Of a DNA stretch of 25,239 nucleotides, positions 1 through 25,239 are shown one piece after another (within the stretch, counting starts at the first letter, position 1; each line of letters begins with the position of its first letter). The stretch is from Thermoplasmatota archaeon (GTDB lineage: Archaea > Thermoplasmatota > Thermoplasmata > Methanomassiliicoccales > Methanomassiliicoccaceae). Location of the stretch: assembly GCA_022709105.1 (NCBI GenBank), contig JAKIXL010000006.1, forward strand, positions 1 through 25,239, written 5' to 3'. The translations under genes and the position numbers were made by a program. The notes below the pieces were generated by a model. That model was not told the DNA's origin. It made no database searches and saw only the letters and a list, made by a program, of their open reading frames with translations.

Positions 1-480
1 CGAGTTCGCGGGTATGGTGAACGCCGTGGTGTTGATCACCGCCCCGTCGGCCTTGAACTGCACCGGGACGTCGGTCAGCGTGACGTTGCCCGAGTTGTGC
101 ACCTCGGCGGAGATGACCACCGGCTTGACCACCTTGATGGTGTACCTCTCCGTCTGGTCCACGGTCCCGTTGGTGAGGCCTATGCTCAGCACCAGGTCGC
201 CGAGGACGGTGCCCGCGGTCACCTTGACGGTGAAGTTCTCCGCATCGGTCGTCCCCGTCGTAGGGGCTACCGTTCCCGAGCTCACTGAGGCGTTCCAGGT
301 GTAGTTTCCGGCCGGCCGGTCGGTCGACACGTGAACGATGACGTCCCCGGTCCCGCTGGGCTGCAGGTATTGAACGCTCCCGTCGAAGCTGACGCTGTAT
401 CTGTCGGTCTCCGCTGCCATGGCCGACGGAGCGGCCAGGCAGGCCATCAGCAGCAGCGATGCCGCCGCTGCCAGGATCAT
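1..480 (-). CDS. Secreted CARDB-like protein, partial (C-terminus beyond window edge)
   Basis: The reading frame opens at ATG 480 and is still open at base 1, giving 160 visible residues. The first 23 residues (MILAAAASLLLMACLAAPSA and on to an AMAA-E junction) look like a signal peptide with a cleavage site, so the product is probably exported. The rest is beta-rich and Thr/Val/Gly-rich. Near the edge it resembles a CARDB or NEW3-type Ig-like fold (a VHNSGN stretch, then VPVQFKADG and an IPANS end). There are six N-x-S/T sequons (NYT, NAS, NFT, NGT, NVT, NTT), so it could be a glycosylation substrate. Its ATG overlaps the TGA of the upstream oligosaccharyltransferase gene as ATGA, which implies translational coupling. 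The signal peptide lacks the usual basic N-terminal residues, but no in-frame upstream start was found. The function of the full protein is unknown. Confidence 0.8.
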   Translation of the reverse strand, partial: MILAAAASLLLMACLAAPSAMAAETDRYSVSFDGSVQYLQPSGTGDVIVHVSTDRPAGNYTWNASVSSGTVAPTTGTTDAENFTVKVTAGTVLGDLVLSIGLTNGTVDQTERYTIKVVKPVVISAEVHNSGNVTLTDVPVQFKADGAVINTTAFTIPANS

Positions 481-3400
481 CTCTTTCTTCGGCGTCCGAA
501 CACCCCCTTGTTGACCCTGAGGACCACGAACAGAACCAGCAGGAGCGCGACCAGGACCGCCAGGGCCCAGGTGCCTGCCGGGATCTGCGGGGTTCCCATG
601 GTTATCCCCTCGCCGCTTACCTCCAGGCCGCCGTCGGTCACGTCCACTGAGGTCTTCTGGATGGATTGCTCCGCGGAGGCGGTGGCGTTGGTGGAGACCA
701 CGGCGACGCGGACGGACGCGCCCATGTCGGGCGAGTCGGAGGCCTTGGTCAGTATGACGTTGACCGTCTGGCCGCTGCCCGCGGAAACGGTCACCAGCCG
801 GTAGTTGGTGTCGACCCCGGATATCCTCGCGGTCCAGCCGTCCATCGCCAGCTGATCGAGGTTGCTGACGGTGAAGTTGTAGGAGTCCTGGGCGTTGCCC
901 TCGTTCTTGATCTGGAACGGATAGGTGATCGAGGTGCCGTCGACCGCCTGCGCCGAGCCCATGGACACCGACACCTTGTAGGTCGGGTTCACGTTGACGT
1001 CAAGGTTCACGCTGCCCTTGGCCGAAGTGTGGTTCAGGGAGGTCGCGGTGATCTTGACCGGCGAATGGATCACCTTGGCGTTCTCGGGGACGATGATGGT
1101 CACCTGCACGGTGCGGGAGCTTCCAGTTCCCCAGGGCAGGCTTATGTCGTTCTCGGAGAAGGTCACGTTCCAGGTCGAGTCCGAACTCAGCCGGTAGGTG
1201 TCGTCCACGTTGCCGCGGTTATATACCGTGACATCGTAGGTGACCGTCTGCCCGGCGTCCACGGTCTTCTTGGTACCTGAGTCCCAGACCAGTTCGACCG
1301 CGCCGCTCAGCTGCCTGACCAGGTCGATGTTCCTGGTGGTGGCCCCGCTGACGGTGATCTCGAAGCTGCTGGTGTGAGTTACGTTCACGCCCGCGACCTC
1401 CTCGTTGGTCCATGTGGCCGCGGCGTTGTAGGTGCCGGCCGGCAACAGTATGCTGTACGAGCCGCCCGCCCCACTGGTCGCCGTGGCCTGCGCGTTGTCG
1501 GAGAAGGTCACCGTCGCCCCGCTCACGCCCGCCCCGTTGTAGCTGATGACCCCGGAGACGGTGTTGCCGGGCTCGAAGGTCAGGTTCGCGGCGTTGGCCT
1601 GGTTGGGGTTGACGGTTATCACTCCGAGGTAAACGTTGGAGCCGGCAACGCCATAGGCGCTGTAGGTCCCTGGTGCCAGGGTGAACGAGTAGGAGCCAGC
1701 GTCGGAGCTTCCGGTGCTGTCCACCGCCGTGTCGGAGAGGGCCTTGAAGGTCCAGGTTACGCCGGATCCTGCCCCGCTCAGCGATCCGCTGATAGTGGCG
1801 GTGTCCAGCGTCCGGTTGAGCCCGATGTCCCTCTCAGTGGTACCGCTCACGGTCACGCTCTGCGTGCCGGAGTACACCACATATCTCGGCTTCTCGTCCA
1901 CCGTGGCCTTGGTGTGGTAGTTCGCACCTATGCTGTACGTCCCATTGACCAGGTAGGTGGTGAACGAGCCTTTGCTGTTGGCGTTCATGGGAAGGCTCGC
2001 CGCGCCGGAGCCGATGGTCACGTTGGCCGGTATGCTCAGATCGCTGCCGTCGTACTGCAGCTGGCCGGTGAAGGCCGGGGCGTACTGGGGCGTGATGCTC
2101 ATCGAGGCTCCGGCGGACAGGGCCTCGGAGCGCAGGTCCGCGAAGTGGGCGTTGTTCTCGGTCAGGCTCGTGTATATGGTGTAAGTTCCCGGCGCCAGAT
2201 ATTCGGTGATGGTCGGGGCCGCGTTGACCGTCATGTTCTGGGGCCCGATGAAGCGGACCGAGCCGGTCGCCGACGCGCCCATGCTCACGCTGAGGGTCAC
2301 CTTCGCGCTCTCGGTGACCGCGATGGCCTGGGCCGCGGGGTCCCTGCCTACCTCGACCGTGAGGGGCTGGGAGGCCTTGTACCGAGACGAGTCGTCGCCG
2401 GAGGTGACGTTCTGGTCCACGATCATGGAGTAGGTCCCCGGGCTGAGGCTGACGCTGAACGCACCAGAGCCGCCGGTGACCGCCGAGGTCGACCGAGCGC
2501 CGCCGCCGTTGGCCGTGAAGCTCACGGTCACCCCGCCGACCCCGGAGCCTCCCGAGGTCAAGGTGCCGGTGACGGTGCGGTTGTCGGCGACCATGGGAAT
2601 GTTCTCCTTGGCCGCGGCGTTCAGCGGGTCGTAGGTCTTCTCCCAGGTCTGGTATCCGCTCAGCGAGGCGGTCAGCTGGTAGCTGCCCTTGGGCAGGGTG
2701 ATGTTGTATCCGCCGGAGGAGGCGGACACGAAGGACACCGTCTGCGCGGCGGCCGTGGTCGACCGCACGCTGAGCACGACGTTGGGTATGCCCTCGCTGC
2801 TGTCCATCTCCCCGTTGCCGTTGGTATCGTACCACGTCCTCCCGGAGATGTACACCGAATCCGTCAGAGCGATGTCCTGGGACGTCGCGCCGGAGACCGA
2901 TGCGGTGCTCCAATATGCCTTGCTCGGACCGGAGGCGTATACGAAGTAGTCCCCGTTCGGCAGGACCAGGCGGTACGCTCCTTCCGAGTTCGTGGTCGCG
3001 GTGACGAAGGTCGCGTCAGAGGTCCTGGTGTACACGACCTTGGCGGAGCCTGCCGCGGTGCTGCCGTCCTTGACCGTGCCGGTGACCACGGAGCCCGCCG
3101 ACATCGACAGGTCCACGGTCGCGGTGTTGCTGTTCGCGTTCAGAGGGGACATGGCCACCTGGTCCACGCCGCCTACGCTGACGATCGCGTACGCGGTGTA
3201 GACGCCCTGGGGCAAGGTGATGCGATAGTTGCCCGAGGCGTCGGTGGTGGTGAACTGCTCCCTGGACGCGGATATGAACCCGACCGCGACATTGGCCTGA
3301 GGCGATCCTCCCAGGGTCACCGTGCCGGTGACCTGGGTGGCCGAGCGCACCCTGAGCTCCACGCTCTTGCTGCTCCCGGCGCTGACGCTCACCTTCACCG

Positions 3401-6400
3401 AGCCGGCGCTGATGTTATAGTCCGTCGTGTCAACGGTGTAGTTGCCAGGCAGCAGGCGGTCGAAGGTGAACGTGCCGCCCGAGCCGCTGGTGGCGTTGGT
3501 GACGTTGCCGTTCTTGTCGTCGGTGATGCTGACCCCGATGCCCTCGGCCGCTCCTCCGCTGACGAAGGAAAGGGTGCCGGAGACCGTCGCGGGCTTTACG
3601 GCCAGGTTCCGGTTCATGGCCTGGCCGGCCACGGTGGTCACGGTGGTCCGCCCGAACTCGTGGCCCTTGTAGGTGGCGTAGAGAACGTTGGACTCGCCGC
3701 CCACCGCTGTCATGCTGTAGGAGCCGTTGGCATCGGTGGTGGCCGTGGCCTTGAACCCGGTGTCGTTGTTGATCATGGTGACCTCGGCCCCGGAGATGTA
3801 CTCATCGCCGGTGCCGAAGCGGCCGTCCCCGTTCATGTCCCAGAACACCGAACCGGAGATTACGGAAGCGGGCAGGACGACGTCGCCGTTCGCGCTGAAG
3901 GCCTCTTTGCCCATGGCCTGAGCGTAGGAGACCGTGAAGTTCAGGCGGTCCAGCTCGGCGCCCACCAGGGTATCGCCCTTCGGGTCCCCGGCGGAGAACA
4001 CCACGCTGACGTCGCCGAACGGCAGGAGGACGCTGTACGACCCGTCGGCCGAGGTCCTCACATTATCATGGGGGATGCCATACTCATCGACCACCGTCAC
4101 CTGGATCCTTGCCAGCGGGGCGCCGTCGTTCGATGTGGCGGTCCCGCTCAGAGGCGCTCCGTCATAATACTGCAGGAATGTCACTCCGGACTGCAGGCTG
4201 GCGGCGGACATGTCCACCGTGCCGTTCATCTTGCCGGCGTCGATCTGCTGCTTGAGGTACAGCGCCTCGTCGAAGGAGATGGCCTTCCACTCGCGGGAGT
4301 GGTTGGCGACATCGGCCGAGCCGTACGGGTTGAAGTACGCGGTCCGGTACACCTGGCGGAAGTGCGTCAGGTTGTAGCCGGGCATGGCGTCGTATTTGGT
4401 CATCGAGCCGGAGATGCCGGGGATGCCCTGGCTGGTGGCGTCCACGTCACTGGGGCTCAGGCCCATGAACGAACGGTACAGCATGGTCTTATAGAACAGG
4501 TCGGTGTAGTAGATCTGGTAGCCGAGCACTCTGTCCATAGAGCCCACGTCCTTGACGTCGACCACGGAATAGTCGCTCAGCACCGCCTTGATCGAATAAT
4601 AGTCGGTAGGGGCGTTGGTCGCGCGGTCGATGACCCGGTCGTTCAGCTTGGCCGGGGCGTAGAAGATGTTGCTGCTGGTGGCGCTGAAGGGGAACAAGCG
4701 GCTGTCGACAGCGACGTAGCCGATATCGTGGCCGGTTACCTCCCTCAGGTCCTGGTACAGGCTGACCATTTTGCTCATGCCGGCCTTGCTTATCTCCACC
4801 CTGGCCGCGGCGTACTTGGCGTTGCCGGGGCTCAGGTCGTCGGTGAAGTTGCCGTAGACCTCGGGGTTGTCCTTCACCTTCTGGACGTAGTTCGCGGGGT
4901 TCTGCATGATGTCCTTGACCGCGTCGGCGTCCACGCCATTCGCCCGCAGGGCGTTCATCACCGAGCCGTTGAAGTCCGTGCCCTCGAGCAGCCTGACGAT
5001 GAGTAGGGACACGGCGTCGCTCTCGTTCTCGGACATGAGGAACGAGCCGGCGAACTCGTAGCCGTCCTGGAAGTTGTCGGCGACCGTGGGATGGCGGCCC
5101 TGCTGGACCGCCTCGAAGCCGTAGTCCCACCATGACAGGTAGGCCGGCCGGTCCTGGATCGGTTCCTCAGTGTCCTGGGTGGCGAACCATGACCAAGCCG
5201 CCGGATAGTAGGCGGTGGGCAGGGGAAGCGAGTAGCTGAACGCCCCCAGGTACCAGTAGGTGCCGTTCTGGACATCGTAGCCGGAGGGGTGTATGAAGTC
5301 CGGCAGAGCATGATAGATCTCCCGGTCATACTCCTTCTTGGTCTCCGAGGGGATGCCGGCGTCAACCGAGGTCCAGGCGTTGGGCAGAATGATCAGGAAG
5401 GCGAGGAACAGCGCCACGGCGACGTGGCGGACCTTGACCGCCTTCTTGAGAGTGGTCCAGGGGTTGGACCGGAACCCGCTGAGGGCCCGGGGGACCTCCT
5501 CGAACTTGATCAGCCCAATGATCAGCGCCAATATCCATCCGGCGGACATGGCGAAGGCCGGGGAGGCGTTGAACATGAACCTGCTGGCCGAGGCCGCCAT
5601 GTAAATGCTCACGGCCATCCACACCACCACGAACACAAGGTATGGGGAGGGGTTCTTGGGTATCTTGACCGCTGCCCACACGATCCCGATCAGCGCCAGC
5701 CAGAAGGTCACGGCCCCGAATGACAGGACCAGGTACGAGAACGTCGGCGCCTGCGCCTCCGAGATGGTGGAGTACAGCTTGCTCTTGACCAGGTAGCCCT
5801 GGCCGGTGATGATCGCCTCGAATATGTTGGGGGCGATGAAGAATATCGCCACCAGCCCTATGGCGATGATGCCCGCCACTGCCGGTATTGCCAGCGTCCA
5901 TGGGTAGTCGCGGGAGACCATTAACAGGCCGCCAACCAGCATCGAGCCGAGGAACAGATAGAACGGCACGTCGAACCACTGGCCCCAGTAGTTCATTTGC
6001 CAGTAGAGCGGGGCCATCACTGCGAAGGCGGTTATCAGCATGACGAACACTATGAAGAACTCGCCCATGGAGTCGACGTTCCGAAAGCGGTTGATGAGGA
6101 CCTGCACAAGGAAGTAGACCAGGACGATGATCAGCAGGTAGGTGTAGCCGGTCCAGACCATGGCCACGGCGGCTATGCATGTCCCGCCCAACATCGCATA
6201 GATGAGCGACCGCTTGTTCGTGCTGAAGTAGCTCTCCAAACCAGACCGTATGGTCCTGCGGTCCCTCCAATCGGCGACCCATTTCGTACCCTTCATCGTG
6301 GCCAGGGCGCGGAACAGGAAGTACAGCGCGAACACCACGAAGAACAGGATCATGGCATCATGGTCGGCGTCGGCAAGCACGCTGCGGGTGATGTTACCAG

Positions 6401-6929
6401 GCATCAGCGCGAACAGCAGCGACGCCAGAAGACCGGCCCGATTGCCGAACGCGGCACGGGTGAGCATGTACAGCGGGATGATGGTAAGCGCGCTCCAGAA
6501 CGGGGTGGACAGCACCAGGGTGTATCCGGTGGCGTCGCTGAGCGAGGCCCCGGATATGCCTGAGATGAACATGCTGGTCACCGCCACCGACCAATCGTAC
6601 AGGGGGGGCCTCATGTTCCTTATGCCCATGGGGTAGTTCAGAAGGGGGTCCTGGACCAGATGTTGGCCGTTATCCTCAACGTACTCGATCACGCGCATGT
6701 GATAGTATGAGTCAGAACCACCGGCGACCAGGAAACCGTTGTCCACCGAGGTGGAGAAGCCATAGTACGATCGCACGAAAAGCGCGATGAATATGACCAC
6801 CACCAGGATGAGGATGGTGCCCCAGTTCTTACCCAGCCAAGTGTCCTTGAACCGGGACTGGATGCCCTCCTTGGTCGGCTTCCGTTCCTTCTGGGACCGG
6901 CCGTCAGGCCTCCCTGCTTTCGCTTCCAT
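477..6929 (-). CDS. aglB: Giant STT3/AglB-type oligosaccharyltransferase with C-terminal Ig-like stalk
   Basis: This 2150-aa protein should transfer lipid-linked glycans to Asn in N-x-S/T sequons on the outer face of the membrane. After a cytosolic basic N-terminus (residues 1-35), residues 36-560 hold many hydrophobic helices. STT3 landmarks are the acidic loop GGSDSYYHMR (D73), the DADHDAM motif (D187-D191) and the catalytic WWDYG at 600-604. From about residue 925 to 1860 there are roughly ten carboxypeptidase-regulatory-like Ig repeats, typically ending in LPxGxY. Two carry SdrD-B-like calcium-loop motifs, near 1030 (DMNGDG) and 1365 (DTNGNG). Two NEW3/CARDB-like domains (about 1875-2090) precede a C-terminal membrane helix and the basic tail RRRKR. 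Known AglB proteins are usually about 800-1000 aa, so the stalk is a large addition. The ATG has AGGAG upstream and a TATA box near 6979. The catalytic part is certain; the role of the stalk is unknown. Confidence 0.92.
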   Translation of the reverse strand: MEAKAGRPDGRSQKERKPTKEGIQSRFKDTWLGKNWGTILILVVVIFIALFVRSYYGFSTSVDNGFLVAGGSDSYYHMRVIEYVEDNGQHLVQDPLLNYPMGIRNMRPPLYDWSVAVTSMFISGISGASLSDATGYTLVLSTPFWSALTIIPLYMLTRAAFGNRAGLLASLLFALMPGNITRSVLADADHDAMILFFVVFALYFLFRALATMKGTKWVADWRDRRTIRSGLESYFSTNKRSLIYAMLGGTCIAAVAMVWTGYTYLLIIVLVYFLVQVLINRFRNVDSMGEFFIVFVMLITAFAVMAPLYWQMNYWGQWFDVPFYLFLGSMLVGGLLMVSRDYPWTLAIPAVAGIIAIGLVAIFFIAPNIFEAIITGQGYLVKSKLYSTISEAQAPTFSYLVLSFGAVTFWLALIGIVWAAVKIPKNPSPYLVFVVVWMAVSIYMAASASRFMFNASPAFAMSAGWILALIIGLIKFEEVPRALSGFRSNPWTTLKKAVKVRHVAVALFLAFLIILPNAWTSVDAGIPSETKKEYDREIYHALPDFIHPSGYDVQNGTYWYLGAFSYSLPLPTAYYPAAWSWFATQDTEEPIQDRPAYLSWWDYGFEAVQQGRHPTVADNFQDGYEFAGSFLMSENESDAVSLLIVRLLEGTDFNGSVMNALRANGVDADAVKDIMQNPANYVQKVKDNPEVYGNFTDDLSPGNAKYAAARVEISKAGMSKMVSLYQDLREVTGHDIGYVAVDSRLFPFSATSSNIFYAPAKLNDRVIDRATNAPTDYYSIKAVLSDYSVVDVKDVGSMDRVLGYQIYYTDLFYKTMLYRSFMGLSPSDVDATSQGIPGISGSMTKYDAMPGYNLTHFRQVYRTAYFNPYGSADVANHSREWKAISFDEALYLKQQIDAGKMNGTVDMSAASLQSGVTFLQYYDGAPLSGTATSNDGAPLARIQVTVVDEYGIPHDNVRTSADGSYSVLLPFGDVSVVFSAGDPKGDTLVGAELDRLNFTVSYAQAMGKEAFSANGDVVLPASVISGSVFWDMNGDGRFGTGDEYISGAEVTMINNDTGFKATATTDANGSYSMTAVGGESNVLYATYKGHEFGRTTVTTVAGQAMNRNLAVKPATVSGTLSFVSGGAAEGIGVSITDDKNGNVTNATSGSGGTFTFDRLLPGNYTVDTTDYNISAGSVKVSVSAGSSKSVELRVRSATQVTGTVTLGGSPQANVAVGFISASREQFTTTDASGNYRITLPQGVYTAYAIVSVGGVDQVAMSPLNANSNTATVDLSMSAGSVVTGTVKDGSTAAGSAKVVYTRTSDATFVTATTNSEGAYRLVLPNGDYFVYASGPSKAYWSTASVSGATSQDIALTDSVYISGRTWYDTNGNGEMDSSEGIPNVVLSVRSTTAAAQTVSFVSASSGGYNITLPKGSYQLTASLSGYQTWEKTYDPLNAAAKENIPMVADNRTVTGTLTSGGSGVGGVTVSFTANGGGARSTSAVTGGSGAFSVSLSPGTYSMIVDQNVTSGDDSSRYKASQPLTVEVGRDPAAQAIAVTESAKVTLSVSMGASATGSVRFIGPQNMTVNAAPTITEYLAPGTYTIYTSLTENNAHFADLRSEALSAGASMSITPQYAPAFTGQLQYDGSDLSIPANVTIGSGAASLPMNANSKGSFTTYLVNGTYSIGANYHTKATVDEKPRYVVYSGTQSVTVSGTTERDIGLNRTLDTATISGSLSGAGSGVTWTFKALSDTAVDSTGSSDAGSYSFTLAPGTYSAYGVAGSNVYLGVITVNPNQANAANLTFEPGNTVSGVISYNGAGVSGATVTFSDNAQATATSGAGGSYSILLPAGTYNAAATWTNEEVAGVNVTHTSSFEITVSGATTRNIDLVRQLSGAVELVWDSGTKKTVDAGQTVTYDVTVYNRGNVDDTYRLSSDSTWNVTFSENDISLPWGTGSSRTVQVTIIVPENAKVIHSPVKITATSLNHTSAKGSVNLDVNVNPTYKVSVSMGSAQAVDGTSITYPFQIKNEGNAQDSYNFTVSNLDQLAMDGWTARISGVDTNYRLVTVSAGSGQTVNVILTKASDSPDMGASVRVAVVSTNATASAEQSIQKTSVDVTDGGLEVSGEGITMGTPQIPAGTWALAVLVALLLVLFVVLRVNKGVFGRRRKR

Positions 6930-11972: not shown

Positions 11973-14761
11973 CAGTCATCACCTCCGCCGCCGCCGGCAT
12001 CGTACTCAGGCTCCTCGGCCTCCTCCTCCTCCATCGTCTCCATCAGGTCCTTCTCGATGGTGGCGTAGCCGGAGAGCTTCTTCTCCTCGATGCGAGCCAG
12101 GGCCTCGGCGTCCTCGCCCAGCACCTCGGAAAGTATATCGTCCACGTCCACCGCGTCGCCCTGGACGCTGCGGCAGGGGTCCACTCCGTCCTCTCCGTAG
12201 CGCAGCTGGACGATGATGTCCGCGGTGTTGCGGACGGTACCGTCCTGCTTAAGCTTGAGGTCCTCCAGCGCGCTGATGAGACGGCGCTGCATGTAACCCG
12301 ACCTCGAGGTACGCACGGCCGTGTCCACGAGACCCTCGCGGCCGCCCATGGAGTGGAAGAAGAACTCCGTGGGAGTGAGCCCGCTCTTATAAGAGTTCTG
12401 CACGAACCCCTTGGCCTCGGCGCCCAGATCGCCCTTCTTGAAGTGAGGCAGCGTCCGGTTCCAGTACCCTCTGGACAGCCTCTCGCCGCGGACGGCCTGC
12501 TGGCCGATGCAGCCGGCCATCTGGGACAGGTTGAGCATGGAGCCCCTGGCGCCTGATCGGGCCATGATGACCGCGGAGTTCTCCATACCCAGGTGGCGGC
12601 CGGCGATCTGACCGGCCTCGTCCCTGGCGCGCCCCAGCACCTTCATGACCTCGACCTCCAGGGTCTCGTCCAGAGAGCGGCCGGGCAACTGCTCGAGGAT
12701 GCCCTCGCGGTACGCCTGCACGAACTCCGATACTCGGCGGACAGCGTCGGTCAGCACCTCCTTGATCTGTATGGACGCCTCCTCGGGAATGTCCTCGTCG
12801 TCGATGCCGGTGGTGAACCCGTGCACCATGATCGCCCCGATGGCCAGCTTGGTGACGTTGTCCAGGAACTCCCGCGAGGCGTCGGCGCCGTAGTCGCGGG
12901 TGATCTTGTCCAGGATCTTGCCCTTGAAGGAGCCGATGGCCTTCTCGTCGATGGTGCCGGTGATCAGCTTGCCCTTGCGTATCTTGACGTACGCGTCGAG
13001 GTCGCAGTCCTCCTTCTTGCACACCGCGCAGTTGCGGCAGATGGACGCCTTGAAGGTTATGTGGAAGTCCTCCGGGAGGACCAGCGAGAACAGCTGGTGT
13101 CCGGTCCAGTACTCCTTCCCGTCCACCACCACGGGCGCGGGAAGCTCGTCGTGCTTCACCTTGGACAGGATGCTCAGCGTCTCCTTCTTGTCGAAACGAG
13201 GGTTCATGTGGGTGAGCAGGAAGGTCCCGGTGATGTGATCGTGGATGGCACCGATGACCGGGCCTCCGAACCTCGGGGACAGGATATGCTCCTGCACCCT
13301 CATCAGGATCATCGCCTCAGCGCGGGCCTCGTCGCTCTGCAGCACGTGCAGGTTCATCTCGTCGCCGTCGAAGTCGGCGTTGTACGGCGGGCACACGCAA
13401 AGGTTGAACCGGAAGGTCTTCCACGGCATCACCCGCACGGTGTGGGCCATCATGGACATGCGGTGCAGGGACGGCTGCCGGTTGAAGAGCACCACGTCCT
13501 TGTCCATAAGGTGGCGCTCCACGATGTATCCGACCTCAAGACCCTCGGCGATCGATTCTGCGTTCCGGTCGGTCACCTTCATCCTGCGCCCGTCGGAGCG
13601 GATCACGTAGTTCACGCCGGGGACGTACCTGTCGTCCACCCGGGGCGGGTTCGCTCCGCCCTTGACCATGTTCCTCAGGAACTCGAGGTTGGACTTCGTC
13701 ACGTGCACTGGCACGGTGAGCTCTCTCGCCGCTTCCTCAGGTACGCCGACCTCATTGATCGAGAGCGAGGGGTCTGGGGAGATCACGGTACGGGCCGAGA
13801 AGTTCACGCGCTTCCCGGAAAGGTTGGAACGGAAGCGGCCCTCCTTGCCCTTGAGCCTCTGCACGAGCGTCTTGAGCGGCCGGCCGGAGCGATGCCTGGC
13901 CGGCGGGATGCCGGAGGTCTGGTTGTCGAAGTACGTGGTGACGTGGTACTGCAACAGCTCCCACAGGTCCTCCACGATTAGCTGGGGGGCGCCGGCGTCA
14001 CGGTTCTCCCGCAGCCTCTGGTTGATCCTCAGGACGTCCACCAGCTTGTGGGTGAGATCGTCCTCGGACCGGTCGCCGGACTCCAGTGTGATGGACGGCC
14101 GCACGGTGACGGGCGGAACCGCCAGAGCGGTCAGAACCATCCACTCCGGGCGGCAGGAGTTGGGATCGATGCCCAGAGGAGGAAGGTCCTCGTCGGGAAT
14201 GCGCTCCAGCCGCTCCCTGACCTCCTTGGGGGTCAGCTTGTGGCCGTCCTCGCGGAAGGTGGTCGGCTTGTCCAAAGTGATCTTTCCCTGCTCCTGGCCG
14301 CAGTAGGGGCATATGGTGTTCTTGGACGCGTCCTTGGCCGTTCCCTTGGCCAGCAGGCGGTAGTCGATCGCGTCGCCGCCCAGGTCGTCCATGTCCGCCC
14401 ACTCCTGGGCCTTGCGCTGCGCTTCCTCCTTGGTCATCAGGAGATGGCCGCAGGTCTTGCAGGTGGACTGCAGCAGCTTCTTGATCTCCTTGACCAGGCC
14501 GACGTGGATGACCGGCATGGCCAGGTCTATGTGGCCGAAGTGCCCGGGGCACTCGTCCACCTTGTTCCCGCAGGTCTTGCACCGCAGACCCGGCTCTATG
14601 ACCCCCAGGTGAGGGTCCATGAGGCCCATGTCGATCGGGAAGCCGTCATCATCGTAGGTGTCCGCGGTGATGACCTTGGTGGCGGACATCTTCCTGACCT
14701 CATCGGGCGACAGTGTCGAGAACTTGATCGAACCGATCCTCTTTGAAACGCCTCGCATCAT
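11972..14761 (-). CDS. rpoA1: DNA-directed RNA polymerase subunit A'
   Basis: This is the catalytic N-terminal part of the largest subunit, 929 aa from the chosen start. The metal-binding active-site motif [12 protein letters not shown] has its three aspartates at 463, 465 and 467. N-terminal zinc ligands are C61, C64, C71 and H74, with further pairs at C101/C104 and C151/C154. [20 protein letters not shown] marks the bridge-helix region. A four-cysteine cluster lies at 575, 578, 581 and 586, and the tail is acidic and Gly-rich. The frame is open 60 codons further upstream, but that part lies inside rpoB. The start at 14761 is chosen because GGAGG lies seven bases upstream, the ATG overlaps the rpoB TGA (ATGA), and homologous sequence begins there. 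A second ATG follows immediately at 14758. Confidence 0.96.
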
Positions 14762-17700
14762 CTTAGGTCCTCCAGCTGAAGGCGCATGACGACGCCAAGT
14801 GACAGCAGCTCGTCGAGCAGCAGCTTGAACGCATAGCTTGTCTGGACGAGGTGCACGTTGGTGTTGTTGCCGCACACCGGACAGCGGATGGCGCCCCGGC
14901 GGTCCATCATGGCGATGTGACCGCAGGCGGGGTTGCCGCATACGTATAGGAACGTGCCGTCGGACTCGTCGAGCAGCCGGTCCTTGATGACCATGGCCGC
15001 GCCGTGCCCGATGAGGCAGTCCCTCTCCATCTCACCGAACCTGAGACCGCCCTGGCGGGAGCGGCCCTCGGTCGGCTGCCTGGTTAATATCTGCACCGGG
15101 CCGCGGGAACGCACGTGCATCTTCCCCGACACCATGTGGTGCAGCTTCTGGTAGTAGATCACCCCGGTAAAGATCTCGGCCTCGATCCTCTTACCGGACT
15201 GGCCATCGTACATGACCTCCTTTCCGGTGGTGTTGAAGCCTGCTCGGCCCAGGGCCTCGCGCAGTGCCTCCTCCTTCTCCCCCGAGAATGCGGTGCCGTC
15301 GATCGAGCGCGCTTCCATCGCCCCGACCTTGCCGCCGATCATCTCCAGGACGTGGGCGACGGTCATGCGCGATGGTATGGCGTGGGGATTGATCACCAGG
15401 TCCGGCGTCACCCCGTCGCAAGTGAACGGCATGTCCTCCTGGGGCACGATGAGGCCGACCACGCCCTTCTGCCCGTGCCGGGACGCGAACTTGTCCCCGA
15501 GCTCAGGGACCCTCTCGTCCCTGACCTTGACCTTCACGAGACGGGACCCGTTCTCCGACTCGGTGAGCATGACCGAGTCTACCCAGCCGCTCTCTCCCGG
15601 CCGGATGGTGATGGAGGTCTCCCTCCTCTTCTGCGGGGTGAGGAAGTCCGTTTCCTCCTCCAAGAACCTTGGCGGGGAGGTCTTGCCGACCAGCACGTCG
15701 CCGCCGGAGACCAGCGTTTCCGGCGAGATCAGGCCGTCCTCGCCCAGGTTGGCGTAGGACAGGTCGGTTCGCGCTCCGCGCACGTCCGGTGAGGGGATCT
15801 CGAAGTGGTCCTCCTGCCCTCCGGGATACCGGCGCTCCTCGGCGCGGTAGGTCCGGAGGAAGGATGAGCGGCCAAGGCCGCGCTCTATGGACGCCCTGTT
15901 GAGGATCAGGGCGTCCTCCATGTTGTATCCGTGGTATGATATGACGGCGACGACGAAGTTCTGGCCCGCCGGACGGTCGTTGAACGCCACGAAGTCCATC
16001 GGTTTGGTCTGCACCATGGGCTTCTGCGGGTAGTGCAGGATGTGTCCCCTGGTATCAGGGCGCTTACGATAGTTGGTGCAGCTCAGGCCCAGCGACTGCT
16101 TGGCCATTCCCGAGCCCATGGTCACCCGCGGGGAGGAGTCGTGCTCGGGGTACGGCACCACGCCGGCGGCCACTCCCAGGATGACCATGGGGTCGACCTC
16201 CATGTGGGTGTTCTCCGAGGTTATCAGCAGCGGGACCTTCATCTCCCCGCCGCAGTGCTTGCACCTCACGACCGCGTCTCCGGTCTCCGCACCGGGGTTC
16301 ATCCAATCGACATCGGTCGGCGACAGCGCGCGGGCGCAGGAGGCGCATCTCTCCGGTGACTCGAACGGCTCGACCGCCACCAGGGAATCCTCTTCCTCCT
16401 CGGCATCTATCCATTCCATAACGCCCTCGCGCAACAGGTCGGCCCACTTGACCTTCCCGTCCCGGATGTCCTCGATGTGCTTGCGGGTGATGACCGGGCG
16501 GCCCTCCTGGACCACGAGCAGAGGGCGGCGCAGGCGGCCCTCGTCGCAGTTGATGATGACCTCGCTCATCTCCTCGTCGTAGCGGATGTTGATCTCGTTG
16601 GACAATAGTCCTTGACGCCTGCCGGCACGGATCTCCGACACCAGCACGCGGGGGTTCTCGATGTATCCGACCAGGTCGCCGTTAACGTACACCTTCGCCC
16701 CGGTGACGGCCTCGCCTGCCTTGACCTCGACCACGCCGCGGTCTCGGAGGAGCCATTGCACGTCCTCCTCGCGGAAGCCCTCGGACACGTCGATGATCAG
16801 GGCGGCGTTCTTGACCAGGCCGCAGTTCTGGCCCTCGGGGGTCTCGTTCGGACACAAACGGCCCCACTGAGTGGGATGCAGGTCACGGGCCTCGAAGTGA
16901 GGCTGGGAGCGCGTGAGCGATGAGGTCACCCTCCTCAAGTGGGACAGGGTGCTCATGTTGGACGTGCGGTCCAGCAGCTGCGACACGCCGGCCCGGCCGC
17001 CGACCCAGTTGCCGGTGGCGAGCGCGTGCAGCAGGCGGTGCGTCAATAGGTCCGGCCTTATGGCCGAGCCGATGCGAAGGTCCTTCTTCCTTGCGAACGA
17101 ACGCTCCAGCTGGTACTTCAGATCCTTCATCAGGTTTGTGAAGGCGACCCGGAACAGGTCCTCCATGAGGTCCCCCGACAGCTTCAGCCGCTTGTTCGCG
17201 TAGTGGTCCTTGTCGTCCTCCTTCCTCATGCCGATGCTCAGCTCCAGCACGGAGCGGGCGATACGGCCCAGGAAGTAGGCCTTCTTGATGCGGTCGTCCT
17301 TGGTGTCCCCGAGGTGGGGCAGCAGGGAGCGGTCGATGATGGACTCGACCTTCTTCTCCCGGTACTCGCGAGCCTGGCCAGTGGCGAACTTGCGCTCCAG
17401 GTAGTTGAGGGCGTCCTCGGTGGTGAACACGCCGTTGGGAGGGTACAGCTTCTTGTCGTGGCACTCCTCGATGTTGGCGTACACGATGTTGGCCATGTCC
17501 GGCACGCTGACGATGGCGTCGTAGATCTCCTTGTCGTTCTCCATCCCCAGGGCCTTCATCAGGATGACGAGTGGGATCTGCCCGGAGGCCGCCGGCACGG
17601 TGACCATGAGGATGCCGTCCTTCTTCTTCTCCACCAGGGTAAGGGCCCGATACCCTTCTTTCTGAGAGAAGACCTTGGCGACCTCAAGCTGGGTGCCGTA

Positions 17701-18357
17701 GCGCTCGTTGTACTCGACCATGACCCGGTTGGGAGCGAGGTCCTCAAGGGATATCAGCACCCGCTCGGTCCCGCCGATGATGAAGTATCCGCCGGGGTCC
17801 GCGGGGTCCTCGCCGGCCTCGATGAGCTTCTCGCGGTACTCGGACTCGGTGAGCTCCCGCTCATCCTCCATGCTCTCCTTGTAGAGGTTGCATCGCTTTG
17901 ACCGGAGCATGATCGGCAGGTCGCCGATGTGCACCTTCTCCGGTTCTTTCTCGATGCCGTCCTCGATTATGGTGAAATCCAGCTCGATCGGCGCCAGGTA
18001 GTTGAGGTTCCTCAGCCTCGCCTCCATGGGCGTCAGCTTGTGCGTCGCCCCGTTGGCCTCCCTTACCACGGGGTTGAGGATGCGTATGGTGGGCCGGCTG
18101 TATTGCGGATCGATGGTGCCGGTCTTCTCGTCCCTGCGCCTTCCGACCCTGATTTCGACCTTGCGGCCGTCGGTACGGTCCTGCTCCAGCCTGATTATCC
18201 CCCTGCTGGTATCGTCCGCCGAGACCCTCAGGTTGTCCACGATCTTCTGCATCCGACTGTTGGGATTGTCCATCGTGGACAGGAAATCGTTGAAGCTGGA
18301 GATGTGATGGTTGACGATGGACCGGTCCTTGAAATAGAGTTCTATAAGATCACGCAA
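14758..18357 (-). CDS. rpoB: DNA-directed RNA polymerase subunit B (undivided)
   Basis: This 1199-aa second-largest subunit is a single chain, whereas most methanogens and haloarchaea split it into B'' and B'. Landmarks in order are [20 protein letters not shown] (about 190), [16 protein letters not shown] (about 505), [20 protein letters not shown] (about 805), [14 protein letters not shown] and the C-terminal zinc ribbon (C1140, C1145, C1159, C1162). An additional four-cysteine segment (C671, C674, C699, C702) follows the DAEEEED stretch. I do not expect it in standard archaeal B subunits. The start codon is TTG 18357, seven bases after the rpoH stop. The strong SD GGGGTGAG covers that stop, and homologous sequence ([15 protein letters not shown]) begins at once, so the TTG is well supported. 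Confidence 0.96.
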
Positions 18358-18363
18358 TTCGTT

Positions 18364-18371
18364 CTCACCCC
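18364..18371 (-). promoter_or_regulatory. Ribosome binding site that fixes the TTG start of rpoB
   Basis: GGGGTGAG overlaps the rpoH stop codon and ends six bases before TTG 18357. No ATG or GTG is in frame nearby upstream. This SD is therefore the main evidence for the unusual TTG start. Confidence 0.75.
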
Positions 18372-18637
18372 TTGAGCTCCTTGCTTATTACAAGGCGATA
18401 TACTATGAACTCCTCGGCGGTGTCGCTCTTTCTTCTGATCTGGATTATCCTGCCGGGATGTATCGGTCCCTCTATGCGCTCCAAGAGCCGGATGCAGGCA
18501 TCGTCCCTCCGGATCTTCGGCAACTGGTCCCTGGTTATCTTCAAATCGGCCAAGATCTTCTCGGCCTCCTGCTCCGAGAGCAGGGAATGTTCTGGCACGA
18601 GATCGTGCTCCAAGACGTTCAAATCCGACTCTACCAC
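18365..18637 (-). CDS. rpoH: DNA-directed RNA polymerase subunit H
   Basis: This 90-aa protein is the small archaeal subunit homologous to the C-terminal domain of eukaryotic Rpb5, which contributes to the jaw of the enzyme. The family signature is clear: [17 protein letters not shown], then LPKIRRDDA and [20 protein letters not shown]. The start is GTG 18637, preceded by GAGGTGATC, a near-perfect complement of the archaeal 16S rRNA 3' end. It is the first gene of the polymerase operon. A TATA-like CTTTTATT lies near 18691-18700. The upstream tRNA gene is on the same strand, so read-through from it is also possible. Confidence 0.95.
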
Positions 18638-18700: not shown

Positions 18701-18772
18701 CTGCCGCGCTGGCTTCCCGAACGTTTTACCTTCCATCGTTCCTCTCCCATTTCCAGGGCGGGCCCGCGGGGA

Positions 18773-18803
18773 TTTTCGGAGCACGCGGGAAGGCCGCGCG
18801 CCT
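18773..18803 (-). other. tRNA-Lys intron 2 (T-loop, position 59/60), 31 nt
   Basis: The fold is nearly ideal for the splicing endonuclease. The exon T-stem CGGGG/CCCCG forms the outer helix. Exon TTCG pairs with intron CGAA as the 4-bp central helix. The two 3-nt bulges are AAA (cut AA/A) and AAT (cut AA/T). Inside, GCGCGCGG pairs with CCGCGTGC around a CCTTC loop. Removing the 31 nt restores the invariant T-loop TTCGAAT. Confidence 0.88.
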
Positions 18804-18842
18804 TTCGAACCCCGGACCACCTGGTTAAAAGCCAGATGCTCT

Positions 18843-18879
18843 TTCTAGGGAGCGGTAAGAGAACTCTCCCCACCGTCCT
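18843..18879 (-). other. tRNA-Lys intron 1 (D-loop, position 20/21), 37 nt
   Basis: Exon CTAG pairs with intron CTAG as a 4-bp central helix, flanked by the bulges GTA (cut GT/A) and AAA (cut AA/A). Inside, GG/CC and CGGT/ACCG continue the stem. The outer D-stem GCTC/GAGC is offset by two unpaired exon bases (AG), so the motif is a relaxed bulge-helix-bulge. Cutting at these sites gives a normal nine-base D-loop, AGCTAGGTA. Confidence 0.85.
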
Positions 18880-18940
18880 ACCTAGCTGAGCTACGGGCCC
18901 ATTGCAAGCTAGTTCGCATTGCAGAACCCCATGTAAAGAC

Positions 18941-18956
18941 TCTAATTATTTAAAGG
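18941..18956 (-). promoter_or_regulatory. Promoter of the tRNA-Lys gene
   Basis: The minus strand reads CCTTTAAATAATTAGA, an AT-rich block in a GC-rich region, about 41-56 bases before the mature tRNA 5' end. A start near 18920 would leave a leader of about 20 nt for RNase P to remove. Confidence 0.6.
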
Positions 18957-19021
18957 TTGCCTATGTGGCCGGTGCCGGGGCCGGCGGCCTGACGATATTC
19001 GAGGCCGCTCGGGCCACGGCC

Positions 19022-24191: not shown

Positions 24192-25239
24192 CTAAGTGTC
24201 AGCCTCGTCCATATCCACCAGCTGTGTCTGATACTCGAAGCGAACGTCCCCCAAGATTGTTGATGCGGAACCGCTTCGGAAGTCGCTTGCCGGCATCCAG
24301 GCTCTCCTGGATGCTGCGTGCCTCCTGGAGGAGCCGTTCGGCCTTGCGGCGTCGCGACGCAAGATGCTCTTCCTTGAGCTTCTCAGAGAAGAAGTAATAG
24401 TTCGCTCGCGATGGAAAGACGCGTTTCGAGGCGTAGACGCCATCTTCCTCGTTAACGAGCTCCCAGACGTTCGCGTTGAAGGTTTGGAACACGGCATCGT
24501 CCGAGGAGTTCAGCTTCTTCGACGTCAGATAGTCGTTCGAATCCAGGACGATGCTTTCCAAGTTCCTCTTGTCGTTCGCGCCCTTGTCGAAGACGATCAA
24601 CGAACCATCTTTCAGCACGTTGCGCACTTGATCGTAAGTACGCCGGAAATGCTCCTGGTCGTTGATGTTGCCCGGCTCGACGGTCATTCCGATCGGCACG
24701 TTCACCGGCGGAGCGAGCTGCGCTACGCCGAGCGTCACCTGCTTCTTGTCCGGTCGGTGGTCGCGAGAGTAACCGAACTTCGCCAGCTCGTTCATGTCCC
24801 CGTAGTAAACGATGGAGGTCCAGTCCATCAGCACGTCCGTCGTCTCGCACCCAAGCAGCTTCAGGACGCGGTCCTGAAGCTCTCGAACGATGCTCTCGCG
24901 GTTGCGTCCTAACGTCTCGATCGCCCGGTACAGCGTCTTGACGTTGAAGTTCGGAAGCTCGTAGTACTCCCTAACTTCCGACCTATTCAACCATTGACCA
25001 GCCTGAAGAACGCTGAAGTTGTCCCCCAATTCGTAGGCGAGCAGACCGCGGACCAGAGGATCGAGCGGAATCCCCTTAGCCTTGTGCCGGCCGATGACGG
25101 CCGGCAGCTCGAGATCTTCGTACCAACCGTCGACCGTCAGCGAGGTGCCGATGGAAAACGATTTATTGTCGTTCGGCGTGATAGTGTCCGTTCTCAGTCT
25201 GGACTGTTTTGACACACACTGCAGCAGGACTGAGAACAC
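24192..25239 (-). pseudogene. IS1634-like (IS4 superfamily) transposase, frameshifted and truncated, partial
   Basis: The main frame runs from the window edge to 24199 (346 aa). It resembles DDE transposases of the IS1634 type. The first catalytic Asp is in VLMDWTSIVYYG (D139) and the second in LIVFDKGANDKRN (D218); FGYSRDHRPDKKQ and VPIGMTVEPGNIND are typical. After FRINN the frame passes through a run of five G (24247-24251) and turns into an unrelated tail. In the neighbouring frame the sequence continues sensibly as LGDVRFEYQTQLVDMDEADT, then stops at 24192. So one extra G breaks the gene, and the C-terminal part with the catalytic Glu is missing. The N-terminus may extend beyond the window; GTG 25239 is only the edge. 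Base composition is visibly less GC-rich than the neighbours, fitting an acquired element. Confidence 0.8.
25190..25237. repeat. 10-bp inverted repeat at the window edge, near the transposase start
   Basis: GTTCTCAGTC at 25190-25199 is matched by its complement GACTGAGAAC at 25228-25237, separated by 28 bases. It lies at the upstream end of the transposase frame. It might be part of the insertion sequence end or a hairpin over the translation start. No matching copy was found on the other side of the transposase (24003-24198). Confidence 0.4.

Follow-up and report, generated by a model that had tools for sequence, protein, structure and literature searches.

A tRNA-Lys(UUU) gene with D-loop and T-loop introns in Methanomassiliicoccus, and its one-chain splicing endonuclease

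The stretch of DNA analysed here (25,239 nucleotides, hereafter the window) carries, at 18759-18900 on the minus strand, a tRNA-Lys(UUU) gene interrupted by two introns, one of 37 nt in the D-loop (20/21) and one of 31 nt in the T-loop (59/60). We are nearly certain that this is a working gene for the tRNA-Lys that reads AAA, whose introns would be removed by the splicing endonuclease EndA and whose exons would be joined by RtcB. A preliminary description of the same DNA had given these coordinates, strand, isotype, intron lengths and positions, all of which hold; its broader reading, of a real, functional-looking tRNA with two non-canonical introns of the bulge-helix-bulge (BHB) type in a euryarchaeon, is supported by what follows.

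The gene, its setting and its exon-intron helices

The RpoB protein encoded in the window shares 98% identity with its counterpart from Methanomassiliicoccus sp. UBA6 (L024), and the host genome is a Methanomassiliicoccus, represented by a draft of 1.79 Mb in 319 contigs that is about 80% complete. The features used below are these:

18880..18900, minus strand: exon 1, with the acceptor 5' strand, the D-stem 5' strand and the D-loop up to U20 (from the spliced sequence and intronless orthologues)
18843..18879, minus strand: intron 1, 37 nt, D-loop 20/21; helix CUAG (exon):CUAG (intron), bulges GU^A and AA^A
18804..18842, minus strand: exon 2, with A21, the D-stem 3' strand, the anticodon arm, the variable region, the T-stem 5' strand and the T-loop to A59
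18827..18829, minus strand: anticodon UUU (ARAGORN on the spliced sequence)
18773..18803, minus strand: intron 2, 31 nt, T-loop 59/60; helix UUCG (exon):CGAA (intron), bulges AA^A and AA^U
18759..18772, minus strand: exon 3, with U60, the T-stem 3' strand, the acceptor 3' strand and the discriminator G; CCA is not encoded
18947..18958, minus strand: TATA-like AACCTTTAAATA, 47-58 nt upstream of the tRNA, a putative promoter recognised by eye
18365..18637, minus strand: ORF of 90 aa, the next gene downstream of the tRNA, which we take to be rpoH
14758..18357, minus strand: rpoB, 1199 aa, used as bait for orthologous loci and for the tree

The tRNA thus lies upstream of rpoH-rpoB, a few hundred bases upstream of rpoB in the loci that we read, and an element similar to the TATA-like one can be seen by eye in L024, L025 and L027. 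AAA codons are in use, with 18 occurrences versus 294 of AAG in 11 genes of the window, and the tRNA-Lys(CUU) of the genome is a separate gene. Elsewhere in the window, the minus strand encodes a 2150-aa protein (477-6929) in which a long run of carboxypeptidase-regulatory-like repeats follows a part that we presume to be AglB-type oligosaccharyltransferase-like, and an ORF at the window edge (24199-25239), which in our judgement resembles an IS-type transposase.

Standard searches miss the gene, as had been anticipated: over the window ARAGORN called no tRNA, and Rfam at its gathering threshold matched neither a tRNA nor any other family. Permitting anticodon-loop introns in ARAGORN, a check that the preliminary description had suggested, still left the 142-mer uncalled; the sole call over the whole window in this mode, a tRNA-Thr with a 2251-nt intron at 2323-4661, is spurious. 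A search of the host genome with RF00005 lists 23 tRNAs, and the gene at 18759-18900 is not among them. In practical terms, common annotation tools can miss tRNA-Lys(UUU) in these methanogens. When the exons are joined in silico by removing 37 and 31 nt, however, ARAGORN calls the resulting 74-mer tRNA-Lys(ttt), with the complete cloverleaf that had been claimed and all stems intact. The joined exons align without a gap at either junction to the intronless tRNA-Lys(UUU) genes of eight relatives, with 97% identity to that of genome G047, and in another genome (G054) the T-loop intron is exactly absent, leaving an uninterrupted T-loop, while the D-loop intron is present. Among relatives, intron bodies diverge and exons and junction helices are conserved.

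In each intron we find the 4-bp central exon-intron helix expected of a BHB motif. The preliminary description had placed both helices between 3-nt bulges, and this stands for one side of each: each of the two introns has one clean 3-nt bulge with its predicted cut two nucleotides in, the other site being a small internal loop of the BHL-like kind. In intron 1 (CUAG:CUAG) the inner bulge GU^A is clean and the outer site AA^A faces A14-G15, which makes a 3x2 loop; in intron 2 (UUCG:CGAA) it is the outer bulge AA^U, beside the T-stem, that is clean, and the inner site AA^A faces one C, which makes a 3x1 loop.

Comparative data argue for both helices, which are recovered in an RNAalifold consensus of 29 sequences. 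In the D-loop helix the exon half varies and the intron half follows, with double changes at three of the four pairs. In shuffles that ignore the relatedness of the sequences, neither the observed fraction of paired cells (95.7%, versus 78.7% in shuffles) nor the 18 cells with double changes (versus 5.0) was matched in any of 500 trials, and the 54 of 60 cells that pair over 15 distinct exon/intron combinations were reached by 0 of 10000; two of the five measures were unremarkable under the same scheme, the double-change pairs being reached in 265 of 500 shuffles and the pair types in 55 of 500. Sliding the helix out of register left at most 42.2% paired. The T-loop helix shows no covariation, only one-sided changes, since UUCG on its exon side is invariant; for the same reason the shuffle test is uninformative for the anticodon and T-loop helices of the pooled loci. 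A four-pair helix is nevertheless present in 74/81 D, 12/16 anticodon and 76/77 T introns of the 131 pooled loci, a count that includes duplicates and Lys(CUU) genes.

In the predicted fold of the precursor the bases of the central helices pair with probabilities of 0.85-0.98, which are retained after removal of either intron; the D-stem adjoining intron 1 is weakly predicted, at 0.14-0.18, and the full bulge-helix-bulge cloverleaf lies 2.3 kcal/mol above the MFE (-71.3 vs -73.6). In 41 relatives with both introns the predicted probability of the central helix exceeds 0.5 in 32 (D) and 31 (T).

The failure of ARAGORN and Rfam to read the gene is what would be expected of a tRNA pseudogene that has decayed and received an insertion of unrelated sequence. 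We regard this as extremely improbable, given that all stems are intact after splicing, that exons are conserved while intron bodies diverge, and that exon and intron change in a compensatory manner. The survey for an intact tRNA-Lys(UUU) that had been proposed earlier points the same way: among the matches listed, none was found in a two-intron genome, and the 16 matches with E <1e-20 all come from the intronless family described below. A weaker intact match was examined in 16 of the 40 two-intron genomes (the host included), and it was Lys(CUU) in 16/16. In the host genome, which at about 80% completeness could by itself hide a second copy, a search with the full precursor gives two matches, the gene of the window and Lys(CUU); another search counts four matches there (G000), individual ones being visible only among the matches listed.

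Distribution in the order and beyond

The 142-nt precursor aligns over its full length in 39 of the 61 genomes of the order, the host included. We read the 30 best of these 39 base by base and all have both introns; so does, by eye, one further genome (G040), bringing the two-intron form to 40/61. G054 is the only genome of the 61 with the D-loop intron alone. A family of 19 genomes (f2) has an intronless gene throughout, called Lys(ttt) by ARAGORN in 19/19, and no tRNA-Lys(UUU) was seen in G048, which is 91% complete.

At the locus itself, 72 of 80 related loci have a readable tRNA-Lys upstream of rpoB, the 80 being the closest (L024-L103) of 589 RpoB relatives, so that the tally leans to near kin. 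Two or three introns are found in 46 of the 72: D and T in 30, D, anticodon (37/38) and T in 11, D and anticodon in 4, and anticodon and T in a single locus, whose gene is cut by the contig end. Ten have one intron (5 D only, 5 T only) and 16 have none. Eight rows were omitted, seven for too low a score (L029, L040, L042, L047, L055, L069 and L089, several of whose contigs begin at or shortly before rpoB) and L084 for want of a candidate. The search for junctions was seeded with the mature tRNA of the window and in its final version favours the expected positions; without this preference it mostly agrees, with off-position results in L041, L072, L080, L083 and L085-L087. Across the loci read, introns measure 19-147 nt, and at all three intron positions the 4-bp helix and a cut two nucleotides into a 3-nt bulge recur. 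At 147 nt the D-loop intron of L099 (4108-4328) is the longest, roughly four times as long as usual, and it has the same helix at its junction.

Further away, a strict D-loop-intron pattern matches 19 of 196 genomes in a sample of the phylum, four of them outside the class, and its backwards control matches 0; the figure is a lower bound, as G007 has the intron and goes unmatched. That most of the sample is unmatched weighs against a phylum-wide presence. The tRNA-Lys of L250 (genome G101) has the D-loop intron, an apparent long anticodon intron and an uninterrupted T-loop.

The splicing endonuclease and the proposed removal of the introns

The preliminary description had asked which type of endonuclease the organism encodes, and the answer is a one-chain, alpha'2-like enzyme: the two endonuclease-family matches in the host genome are two tRNA_int_endo repeats of a single 351-aa protein in one open frame. 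The family was found in 60 of the 61 genomes of the order (the exception being G025), with both repeats in one frame in 58/60; G034 has one repeat and G048 has them in two different frames. Y283, H298 and K329 of the C-terminal repeat are taken to be the catalytic triad Tyr-His-Lys. They are invariant in 40 EndA proteins, K329 aligns to K287 of Archaeoglobus fulgidus, and Y283 and H298 are present in 29/30 loci, the host included, the thirtieth (L163) being broken. The naming of the triad is based in part on PMC12397907. The monomer is modelled with a pLDDT of 89.2, and the closest solved structure is the Methanopyrus kandleri fusion 5x89. A gene for RtcB is present. L163 belongs to G048, so that the draft without a visible tRNA-Lys(UUU) also has a broken or ambiguous EndA reading frame.

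The Crenarchaea-specific loop, a lysine-bearing insertion after the YYG of the catalytic repeat, is absent from the EndA of the host. At this site the Aeropyrum pernix enzyme has 9 extra residues relative to its N-terminal repeat, while the loop of the host is by eye as short as that of A. fulgidus, and it is short in 29/30 loci (L163 is broken). Inside the short loop an invariant lysine directly follows YG, and it may have a different role.

The earlier inference that such introns imply an endonuclease of relaxed specificity is unneeded in that form, the enzyme being alpha'2-like without the Crenarchaea-specific loop. In the passages at hand, alpha'2 enzymes are classed as narrow or strict (PMC6379350, PMC4090602), and BHL-like sites are reportedly cut by homodimeric enzymes (PMC8707768). 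With one clean bulge and one small internal loop per intron, a new relaxed enzyme is therefore not required. Either the enzyme of this organism reaches further or the strict classification of alpha'2 enzymes is too narrow.

We infer transcription, cleavage and joining, and the performance of both cuts by the organism's own EndA, from these elements together. In the transcript, four nucleotides of the D-loop (C16-G18) would form a helix with the end of intron 1, as would four of the T-loop (U54-G57) with the end of intron 2; EndA would cut two nucleotides into each bulge, RtcB would join the exons into a mature 74-nt tRNA, and CCA would be added afterwards. A removal by another nuclease or by self-splicing could be entertained, since the available part of PMC6379350 counts the alpha'2 enzymes from Archaeoglobus and Thermoplasma among the narrow ones and neither intron of the precursor has two clean bulges. 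It is nonetheless highly unlikely: in the loci read the EndA signature is found at all three intron positions, a ribozyme would usually be longer than these introns and Rfam matches no family in the window, and the report on homodimeric enzymes cited above covers BHL-like sites.

The elbow of a tRNA is held by contacts between G18 and U55 and between G19 and C56, residues that lie within C16-U20 and U54-A59. In the predicted precursor these segments are paired with, or bulged out by, the introns. As the introns occupy both partners of the elbow, the mature L-shape would be expected to form only once both are removed, and splicing to be independent of the mature domain.

The mechanism that we favour, cleavage by EndA, is the known archaeal one, and introns of this kind are already known. 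Positions 20/21 and 59/60 are among those listed for non-canonical archaeal BHB introns in the accessible part of PMC4090602, and the resemblance extends to the 4-bp central helix and to several introns per tRNA gene. Euryarchaeal genes with more than one intron are recorded in M. kandleri and Methanothermobacter (PMC4033280, Table 1, as far as seen). For the EndA of M. kandleri, PMC6379350 (in part) gives the class (alpha beta)2 and a 'constrained broad' specificity; the Methanomassiliicoccus enzyme differs in consisting of a single natural chain, and the introns described here are common to many lineages. The pylT gene of Candidatus Methanohalarchaeum is likewise a euryarchaeal tRNA gene whose BHB introns, one or two in number, are 'presumably' removed (PMC9071458); it differs in being another tRNA, and the passage at hand names neither a wider conservation nor an enzyme. 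The protein is like the EndA of A. fulgidus, Thermoplasma acidophilum and Ferroplasma in its single chain, its two repeats and the triad in the C-terminal one, with 351 aa versus 305, 289 and 288 aa, respectively (PMC6379350 and PMC8707768, in the parts available); unlike theirs, its substrates here lie in D- and T-loops.

Introns in other tRNAs and the age of the introns

The trait of non-canonical introns extends beyond one gene. A T-loop motif search found introns in other tRNAs of the order, at the same place and with other sequences. Once these introns are taken out in silico, the ARAGORN result is Arg(UCU) for seven loci (L201, L203, L207, L217, L218, L227 and L233), two of which belong to the intronless family and one of which is repeated by L228, Lys(CUU) for L194 and L226, and Arg(CCG) for L229 and L236; five others (L211, L212, L214, L225 and L231) receive other names, their exons being Arg(UCU)-like by eye. 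Some Arg(UCU) genes have a second intron after the anticodon.

T-loop introns in several tRNAs would be expected if the conserved T-loop were a preferred target, and, together with the strong differences between intron bodies from one lineage to another, they lend something to the view that insertions occurred separately and recently at one pair of hot spots in many lineages. We think this rather unlikely. The place upstream of rpoB is common to the loci, and the RpoB tree (FastTree, 81 rows, of which 72, i.e. 71 loci and the window, are labelled; L044, which begins inside the gene, is in the tally of 72 and unlabelled here) requires by parsimony at least 3 changes for the D, at least 4 for the anticodon and at least 6 for the T intron, numbers that on an unrooted tree cannot tell gains from losses. 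With so few changes the introns look old.

Their age, spread and enzyme partner go against the published generalisation. In the portions of the reviews available to us, non-canonical and multiple tRNA introns are linked to endonucleases of the (alpha beta)2 or epsilon2 type, and intron-bearing tRNA genes of euryarchaea are said to contain a single canonical intron. What is unexpected here is the likely age and spread, in euryarchaea, of a multi-intron tRNA reading AAA, accompanied by an alpha'2-like enzyme in the order of the window. Our literature search found nothing on tRNA introns in Methanomassiliicoccales among the matches listed; these introns have likely been annotated in databases before.

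A scenario that we regard as possible rather than probable puts the origin of both introns of tRNA-Lys(UUU), in the D- and in the T-loop, early in the history of Thermoplasmatota. They would then have been retained, in some cases alongside a third intron at the canonical place, in lineages with an alpha'2-like EndA devoid of broad-specificity loops, and their masking of the elbow (G18-U55, G19-C56) would serve as a checkpoint. If this were true, the proposed tie of enzyme type to intron freedom would be broken, and folding, modification at 54-58 and use would be reserved for the fully spliced tRNA. The many natural pairs of substrate and enzyme, along with exact losses, offer material to test the determinants of EndA specificity.

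Three further observations concern the other tRNAs. The tRNA-Lys(CUU) genes of L226 (G009) and L194 (G017) have their T-loop intron at 59/60. In family f6 (G019, G022, G025 and G028) a T-loop intron in Lys(CUU) is indicated by the adjacency of matches. Finally, in the host genome (L224, C16:4700-5000) the 3' part of a tRNA-Arg(UCU) and its T-loop intron are present and, compared with G001-G003 and G005, the 5' exon is apparently missing, which seems to be a deletion or an assembly error.
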